Origin: Acidimicrobiia bacterium
GTDB lineage: Bacteria > Actinomycetota > Acidimicrobiia > Spongiisociales > JAENVV01
NCBI GenBank assembly: GCA_016650365.1
Contig: JAENVV010000005.1
Coordinates: forward strand, 1-34,439
Direction of reading: 5' to 3'
DNA length: 34,439 nucleotides
Positions within the stretch are counted from its first letter, which is position 1. Every line of letters begins with the position of its first letter. Positions 22,350 to 34,439 of the stretch are shown here, piece after piece. The notes under the pieces were generated by a model, which ran no database searches, was not told the origin of the DNA, and was given only the letters and a program-made list of their open reading frames with translations. Made by a program: the position numbers and the translations under genes.

Positions 22350-23393
22350 TCACCGAACGAGTCGGATGGTGCCTTCTGCCCCACTGTGAATCTCACCGAT
22401 GACCGCACTCTCAAAGCACTCGTGTTCTTCAAGCCGATCGAGTAGGTCCTGAGCTTCGGCTGGCGGGACGCAGATCAACAAGCCCCCGCTGGTCTGAGCG
22501 TCCGCGAAAAGCTGAAGCCAGGCTGGTTCGACGTCCGATGTCACATGCGGGGACACCTCTTCAAGGTTCCGCTGACTGCCTCCGGGAAAGAAGCCGGCCT
22601 CGAGCAGCGCCTCGACACCGTCCATCAACGGGACCTGATCGACCTCGATGAGCGCACTTACGCCAGCCGACGTGAGCAACTCGCGCAGGTGGCCGAGTAA
22701 ACCATATCCCGTCACGTCCGTACAGGCGTGGGCATTGACCGCCGCCATGGCCAGCGAAGCCCCAGCGTTCAATTCAGCCATCGTCTCGATGCAATAGCGG
22801 GCGAGTTCCTCGTCCACCTTTCCGGCTTTGAGAGCCGTGGTGATAATGCCCGTCCCGAGCGGCTTGGTCAGAACCAGTTGATCGGCCGGCCGGGCTCCGG
22901 CGTTGGTTTGGAGTCGACCCGGCTCGACGATGCCGGTTACGGCAAATCCGTATTTCGGTTCGGGATCATCAATCGAATGGCCGCCAACGACCGTGCAGCC
23001 AGCTTCTTCCATGACGGAAAGGCCGCCTTCGATAACTCGCTCAAGCACGTCAAAGCCAATGACCCCCCGGGGCCACCCGACCAGTTGGAGGGCCGTGAGG
23101 GGGTCACCACCCATCGCGTAGACGTCGGACAGGGCGTTGGCCGCGGCGATTCGCCCCCAGTCGAACGGGTCGTCAACGATCGGTGTGAAGAAGTCGACGG
23201 TTTGAACGAGCGCGTCTCCGCCGGGCGCCATGAAGACACCCGCATCGTCGGCATATTCGATTCCGACGATCAGATCGGGATGCTGTGTGGCAGGGGAATT
23301 GTGCAAGGGGCGCAGAACCTGCGCCAACTCAGCTGCGCTGAGTTTGCACGCTCAGCCGGCGCCATGTGAAAAGGCAGTAAGCCGCTCAGACAT
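22350..23393 (-). CDS. selD: Selenide, water dikinase with selenocysteine at UGA (codon 14)
   Basis: SelD makes selenophosphate from selenide and ATP, the selenium donor for selenocysteine and selenouridine synthesis. The body carries the family core A-D-D-A-G-V, T-V-D-F-F-T-P, A-N-A-L-S-D-V-Y-A-M-G-G, V-V-G-G-H-S-I and T-D-V-T-G-Y-G-L-L-G-H. A naive frame starts at TTG 23327 and lacks the N-terminal catalytic segment. Reading upstream in the same frame gives M-S-E-R-L-T-A-F-S-H-G-A-G, then TGA (23352-23354), then A-C-K-L-S: exactly the G-(C/U)-x-C-K site, with UGA at the position that is Sec in many SelD proteins. ATG 23393 has AAAGGGGA upstream. A perfect hairpin follows the UGA. The full length is 347 residues. 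It lies 21 bp after the DivIVA-repeat gene. Confidence 0.93.
23326..23354 (-). promoter_or_regulatory. Candidate bacterial SECIS hairpin in selD
   Basis: The in-frame UGA (23352-23354) is followed, 7 bases later on the minus strand, by AACTCAGC (23337-23344), a GCA loop (23334-23336) and GCTGAGTT (23326-23333), an 8-bp perfect stem. Bacterial SECIS elements are hairpins inside the coding region shortly after the UGA, with a guanosine early in the apical loop; here the loop begins with G at the 16th base after the UGA. SelB binding is inferred, not shown. Confidence 0.75.
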
Positions 23394-33668: not shown

Positions 33669-34202
33669 TTAGGGGATCGCCGCCATCACCTCGTCGAGAT
33701 CGGCATGATCGCCGGCGTGGTCCTCGAAGTCGGCATACAACAGTCCATCGCCCGGTCCGATCACCAGGGTGGCACCCAGCTGGAATGGCCGGCGACCGCT
33801 CTTGCGTTGGCGATGGCCGGCCGCCAGGCTACGCGCCCCGGCCGCCAGGGCGGACGGCTTGGCGATGGAAGCCAATCCGAGCCGCCCGGTTCCGACGAGT
33901 TCGGCAGCCAACCCATCTTCGTCGAGTAGGACGTCGAAGGGCACGCGCTCATCTTCGATAAACGACTGGGCGTAGCGCTTGCCACCGGTTCCGATGGCGA
34001 CCACGGTCGCCCCTGTCGCGGTGATCTCCTCATATCTGTCGCGGACCTGACCGGCCCGCTCGCGGCACGTCAGTCAGCCAAAGTGCCTGAGGAACAGCAC
34101 GATGGCAGGCGCTTCAGCCCACCGGTCGCCGAGGCGATGCTCGCCACCCTCGGGGTCGATCAACACCTGATCGGCTAGCTCACCGACGTCGAACGATCTC
34201 AT
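33669..34202 (-). CDS. Peroxiredoxin-like (AhpC/TSA, PRX-like2/SelL-type) selenoprotein, Sec at UGA codon 43
   Basis: The 177-codon frame begins with ATG 34202 and contains a single in-frame UGA (34074-34076). Translated through it, the protein reads V-L-F-L-R-H-F-G-Sec-L-T-C-R-E, which is the F-G-C-x-x-C-R active-site region of the thioredoxin-fold PRX-like2 (FAM213/AhpC-TSA_2) family with the first Cys replaced by Sec (U43-x-x-C46). The rest fits the fold: V-V-A-I-G-T-G, F-I-E-D-E-R-V-P-F-D-V-L-L-D-E-D-G and a C-terminal G-D-G-L-L-Y-A-D. A gene caller would see only the 3' piece from GTG 34004. Its ATG overlaps the stop of the preceding lipoprotein gene by 4 bases. It probably acts as a thiol peroxidase or oxidoreductase. 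Confidence 0.85.
34047..34076 (-). promoter_or_regulatory. Candidate SECIS hairpin after the UGA of the peroxiredoxin-like gene
   Basis: Directly after the UGA (34074-34076), CTGAC (34069-34073) can pair with GTCAG (34047-34051). Inside it, GCC (34064-34066) can pair with GGC (34054-34056), leaving a 7-base loop and a small internal loop; CCG/CGG pairing with a CGAG loop is an alternative. The stem is weaker than the one in selD, but its place fits a bacterial SECIS. Confidence 0.5.
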
Positions 34203-34439
34203 GGCCCGAACGATTCCATAGGAGTCACGTTATCTTCGTCTGGCAAGTCGATGACGACGTTCTCGTCGTAATCGAACAGGTCATATTGCATCGACAAAAC
34301 TCCCGCCGCGCTGACTTCCTCATACGAGATCGCATATCGATAGATCCAGTTATCACCGGTGATCCAGACATCCATCGGCAGCTGCTCGATCCCTGAAGCT
34401 CGCAGCTCCTCCACCGTAACTCCACCACCTAGGTCCCCA
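34199..34439 (-). CDS. LppX/LprG-like lipoprotein, C-terminal part
   Basis: Only the last 79 codons are in the window; the frame is open to the right edge and no start is needed inside. The text G-G-G-V-T-V-E-E-L-R-A-S-G-I, then L-P-M-D-V-W-I-T-G-D-N-W-I-Y-R-Y, then a strand ending Y-D-L-F-D-Y-D, resembles the C-terminus of LppX/LprAFG-type (DUF1396) lipoproteins of actinobacteria, which bind lipids outside the membrane. The stop overlaps the peroxiredoxin-like ATG (ATGA), implying one transcript and coupled translation. The call is moderate because the signal region is outside. Confidence 0.55.
   Translation of the reverse strand, partial: GDLGGGVTVEELRASGIEQLPMDVWITGDNWIYRYAISYEEVSAAGVLSMQYDLFDYDENVVIDLPDEDNVTPMESFGP

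Follow-up and report, generated by a model that had tools for sequence, protein, structure and literature searches.

A predicted PRX-like2/SelL-related UxxC selenoprotein with its own SECIS-like hairpin in an uncultured Acidimicrobiia lineage

Catalogues of prokaryotic selenoproteins hold more than 110 families, including a Redoxin-family UxxC protein (PMC13188914; PMC9312934). A peroxiredoxin-like family protein (cd02970/PF13911) is listed as a UxxS selenoprotein (PMC13188914 Table 1; PMC9312934) and a Prx-like thiol:disulfide oxidoreductase (PF00578) as UxxC/UxxU (PMC13188914 Table 1). 'ULPU-containing' proteins have been catalogued (PMC5029168), and a UAG-Sec 'AhpC' has been described in Blastococcus (PMC5330540). 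The window analysed here, a stretch of 34,439 nt from an Acidimicrobiia metagenome-assembled genome (MAG), carries a gene that is related to the catalogued UxxC, UxxS and UxxU proteins and that, judged from comparative sequence analysis, is almost certainly a genuine selenoprotein gene.

The gene lies on the minus strand (34202 to 33669) and consists of 177 codons followed by a TAA stop (33669-33671), with a single in-frame TGA at 34074-34076 (TCA on the plus strand) as residue 43. The product reads MRSFDVGELADQVLIDPEGGEHRLGDRWAEAPAIVLFLRHFG-U-LTCRERAG... (177 residues). Within the context LFLRHFGULTCRERAG, the predicted selenocysteine U43 opens LRHFG-U-LT-C-R and is the first position of a UxxC motif. 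The second position is Cys46 (TGC, 34065-34067, minus strand), which is the sole cysteine of the protein and is invariant in 30 sequences. A preliminary description of this DNA had reported one TGA interrupting a continuous 178-codon frame; its coordinates are correct, although it left the strand unstated. It had also expected standard annotation to cut the gene and this is indeed the case: when the UGA is not recoded, mechanical ORF calling yields only a 111-aa fragment (33669-34004) from an internal GTG start. Recoding therefore explains a gene that would otherwise be shortened to this fragment.

The gene upstream, of which the 3' part (34199-34439, minus strand) is present before it runs off the window, is lipoprotein-like but has no Pfam match. 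The ATG of the Sec gene (34202-34200) and the TGA of the upstream gene (34201-34199) form an ATGA overlap. In three congeners (L052-L054) a full-length lipoprotein-type ORF (signal ...LMLVLAACGGG) ends at the same overlap. The overlap noted earlier is thus real, but the coupling is genus-specific and conservation of this neighbour stops at the genus. The genes found immediately upstream, judged by eye, resemble those of a peptidase, a membrane protein, a cyclase-like protein, ornithine carbamoyltransferase and a luciferase-like oxidoreductase, and outside the genus we found no conserved operon or neighbour except within one family (f7). Because the neighbours vary in this way the coupling to the lipoprotein gene is uninformative, and it is probably without functional meaning. 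A search of viral contigs and plasmids found no relatives.

We searched 149 genomes related to the Acidimicrobiia MAG of the window for near orthologues and found 28 copies in 27 genomes, with 62-97% identity. Each of the 28 copies has exactly one stop and in every case it is TGA. In a codon alignment the TGA occupies one shared column in 26/26 copies and there are no further in-frame stops. From codon +15 onward, the changes relative to one of these copies (L021) fall at codon positions 1, 2 and 3 in 14, 11 and 70 cases, respectively. Against the same copy there are 59 synonymous and 22 amino-acid changes, and synonymous changes also clearly outnumber amino-acid changes against the congeners. 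The excess at third positions downstream of the UGA argues that the frame is translated beyond it, and the pattern of substitution indicates that the downstream half is under protein-level selection in the Sec frame. This agrees with the earlier view that both flanks of the TGA belong to the same frame.

These data bear on whether the TGA could be a nonsense mutation in a Cys-type PRX-like2 gene, that is, a pseudogene or a sequencing error. The window and its near relatives are metagenome assemblies and one TGC to TGA change would suffice to produce the observed codon. However, the same TGA is present in 27 genomes at 62-97% identity, selection downstream of it is purifying, other stops are absent and synonymous sites after it are frozen (see below). 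The recurrence of the TGA in independent assemblies also means that it is not a sequencing error, a check that had been proposed in the form of resequencing. Conservation rules out the pseudogene or assembly error, which we regard as having a negligible chance of being correct, and a chance origin of the in-frame TGA is excluded by the sequence comparison.

The genome has a complete set of genes for SelA, SelB, SelD and tRNA-Sec, in accordance with the proposal that selA, selB and tRNA-Sec should be sought. selA and selB adjoin each other on one contig (C167) and a single tRNA-Sec exceeds the Rfam cut-off (76.3 bits, anticodon tca). selD (selenophosphate synthetase) is in the same window as the Sec gene (22350-23393, minus strand) and itself has an in-frame UGA at 23352-23354 (HGAGUACK), which is the classical Sec site. 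There is a hairpin right after the selD UGA; selA/selB and tRNA-Sec are encoded on contigs other than this one. Among the relatives selA is present in 122/149 genomes, so its co-occurrence with the Sec gene is expected and is not extra evidence. In the 27 carriers, selA was not found in G002 and G086 and is a fragment in G075, all three being incomplete assemblies (MAGs). One selA homologue over the cut-off (G102:C24:10358-11668) contains one in-frame TGA.

There is a bacterial SECIS-like hairpin, GCGGGCC-GGUCA-GGUCCGC (34041-34059, minus strand), in which the 7 bp stem encloses a 5 nt loop (34048-34052), 21 nt after the UGA. Published criteria for such elements are a loop of 3-9 nt, a stem of 4-16 bp, G in the first two loop positions, a spacing of 16-37 nt from the UGA and a minimum free energy of -7.5 kcal/mol or lower (PMC13188914 Fig. 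2). The window hairpin agrees with all of these: a 7 bp stem closes the 5 nt GGUCA loop, the spacing is 21 nt and the consensus has a free energy of -10.1 kcal/mol. Downstream of the UGA, synonymous sites are near-frozen in codons +5 to +11 (GCC, GGT and CAG, 26/26 each; GTC, 23/26; CGG, 22/26) because these codons are part of the hairpin. In the six-codon window from +5 (codons +5 to +10) synonymous entropy is 0.16 of expectation; the 156 other windows of the gene average 0.77 (sd 0.08) and the lowest of them has 0.59. Pairing is retained in 95.6% of the cells of the 7 bp stem and falls to 43% or less when the partner is slid by 1-3 columns. The stem hardly varies within the clade of the window, so covariation there is weak and amounts to two compensatory G-C to A-U cells, both at one pair. 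When folded on its own the window hairpin is not exceptional in energy compared with shuffled sequences (z -0.87), so the case for a SECIS rests on conservation. For some orthologues the minimum-energy structure is a competing fold, and an Rfam scan of the Sec-gene locus gave no match even at an E of 1. A lower stem (columns 9-13 with 41-45) was also considered and rejected, its support being no better than that of shuffles.

A family profile search of 396 Actinomycetota genomes recovered additional Sec homologues as well as some with Cys. At the column of the UGA, L018-L047 have TGA, and L096, L114-L116, L084 and L086-L088 have TGC or TGT. It had been suggested that the TGA falls on the first Cys of an FGCxxCR motif and that relatives should have Cys at this column; the aligned relatives have either Cys or Sec there. 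In more distant Acidimicrobiia paralogues the same column is likewise Sec (RYFGU-x-x-C) or Cys (RYFGC-x-x-C). For L073 and L076 (G122 and G021), and also in G073:C84, there is a second, distant UxxC selenoprotein paralogue of the RYFGU-x-x-C kind approximately 2.5-4 kb from the family gene.

Homologues L094, L095, L097-L113 and L117 keep the UGA but have a different hairpin in the same place, for which GUCGCGC-AGUU-GCGCGAC is typical. Across 19 of these distant Sec homologues with the AGUU-type hairpin there are both-sided changes at 5/7 pairs, and the covariation score of 0.382 (0.177 in shuffles) was reached by 0/500 shuffles. The four Cys homologues that were folded (L096 and L114-L116) have no such hairpin at that place, and three of them (L096, L114 and L115) have CTG or CTC where the Sec homologues with the AGUU hairpin keep TTG. 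The bacterial SECIS that had been proposed after the UGA therefore fits the published model, shows synonymous freezing in the clade of the window and has covariation behind it in sister clades. A third Sec group (L118-L121) has, at a similar distance from the UGA, a hairpin of another SECIS type, CACCT-CGUGA-AGGUG. One locus (L095; G172:C130:56119-57215) is a tandem pair of adjacent UGA-containing family copies.

Sequence alone cannot reveal the inserted residue, and the UGA might be decoded as another amino acid or be read through independently of a SECIS. We consider this very improbable, since the genome carries the Sec machinery, the UGA replaces Cys at a redox site (as the selD UGA is at a classical Sec site) and the SECIS-like hairpin is present here but absent from the four Cys homologues that were folded. 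Insertion of Sec is thus the preferred reading. In the proposed mechanism, SelB would bind the hairpin through its GGUCA loop and bring Sec-tRNA-Sec to the UGA, and the product would be a cytosolic protein of 177 aa in which U43 is the sole Sec and C46 the sole Cys. Each of the proposed tests that could be run was in favour of the redox selenoprotein suggested earlier, in which Sec in the protein is still a prediction.

A tree of 69 rows contains 58 Sec and 11 Cys sequences and the clade of the window is wholly Sec. The Sec/Cys labels require 4 changes on this tree, compared with a mean of 10.4 when they are shuffled. Sec seems, on these sequences, to have been retained throughout the Acidimicrobiia clade of the window. 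By contrast, Cys forms occur in sister lineages, and one genus holds both a Cys (L096) and a Sec (L098) homologue. The Acidobacteriota have both UxxC and UxxU members. Two of the acidobacterial sequences (L128 and L129) are SelL-type, with two in-frame UGAs (AULPU and GULLU), the first of which is followed by an AGUU-loop hairpin.

The window protein has Pfam matches to AhpC-TSA, AhpC-TSA_2 and Redoxin. For AhpC-TSA_2 (PF13911) it scores 42.8 bits against a gathering score of 27, and 30/30 members of alignment A2 match this domain. With a domain over the gathering score and a redox motif at the CxxC column, it belongs to PRX-like2/AhpC-TSA_2. The AlphaFold model, made from a five-sequence alignment, has a pLDDT of 78.8 and a pTM of 0.81. 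PRXL2B (9us9) is the top match both by sequence (E 8e-6) and by structure (E 2.5e-9, TM 0.71/0.87).

The favoured reading is that the protein is a Trx-fold selenol oxidoreductase of the PRXL2/SelL type, for which peroxide, disulfide or endoperoxide would be candidate substrates on pure inference; we hold the oxidoreductase mechanism to be somewhat more probable than not. In PRXL2/SelL-like action, the U43 selenolate would attack a peroxide or disulfide substrate and C46 would resolve the U43 adduct to give an intramolecular U43-C46 selenenylsulfide (Se-S), which may then be reduced by the thioredoxin or mycothiol system. As C46 is the only cysteine, this selenenylsulfide is the obvious intermediate. 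The protein might instead act mainly as a true hydroperoxide-reducing peroxiredoxin, and the AhpC-TSA and Redoxin domain matches are in keeping with this, as is the general expectation that a selenol would react well with peroxides. However, the classical peroxiredoxin motif PxxxTxxC is absent (the sequence is RHFGULTC). In the alignment to BcpB (5epf), R39, U43 and C46 fall on P, T and C, placing U43 at the Thr position and C46 at the position of the peroxidatic Cys. Additionally, the best fold match is to PRXL2B and not to a peroxidase. A true peroxiredoxin is therefore the less probable of the two, with perhaps one chance in three. The earlier term 'peroxiredoxin-like' stands as far as the PRX-like2 domain is concerned, but this is not a peroxiredoxin proper and its closest relatives are SelL-related/PRX-like2 proteins.

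With these results, a little-studied lineage of uncultured Acidimicrobiia gains a selenoprotein branch with good support. The clade is apparently Sec without exception whereas sister lineages have Cys forms, and together with the congeneric Sec/Cys pair this makes the family a natural test case for the retention of selenium in thioredoxin-fold enzymes. Between clades the type of SECIS shifts (loops GGUCA, AGUU and CGUGA) while the distance from the UGA is nearly constant, which should be useful for studying hairpin recognition by SelB.

Among known systems, the nearest NCBIfam model is the SelL-related redox protein NF040769. The window protein shares with SelL the fold region and the LRHxGU-x-x-(C/U)-R motif, with 30/30 members of A2 matching. 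However, it scores 84.4 bits, below the cut-off of 120, whereas sister groups score 101-182 bits and several pass, among them acidobacterial UxxC and UxxU relatives (134 to 182 bits). All 30 members of A2 have UxxC, which separates them from the UxxU diselenide motif of SelL proper. The catalogued cd02970/PF13911 selenoprotein has in common with the window protein the AhpC-TSA_2 family and a Sec in a UxxX redox-type motif but is UxxS, where all members of the window family are UxxC, a separation made by description and not by aligning the sequences. The PF00578 UxxC/UxxU protein shares UxxC and a Prx-like fold and differs in its PF00578 class, again as compared by description only. In human PRXL2B, a prostamide/prostaglandin F synthase (PDB 9us9, 9usa), the catalytic CxxC (C44/C47) aligns with U43/C46; this is a Cys enzyme with approximately 18% identity to the window protein and a shared substrate is not implied. 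Set apart from the catalogued families by their descriptions, the window gene is probably a new subfamily of a known kind of Sec redox protein. On balance, we lean towards an uncatalogued SelL-related/PRX-like2 UxxC subfamily that is apparently Sec-only across the Acidimicrobiia (28/28) and has a frozen GGUCA SECIS of its own, within a superfamily from Actinomycetota and Acidobacteriota that mostly contains Sec and shows Sec/Cys exchange between congeners (L096 and L098).
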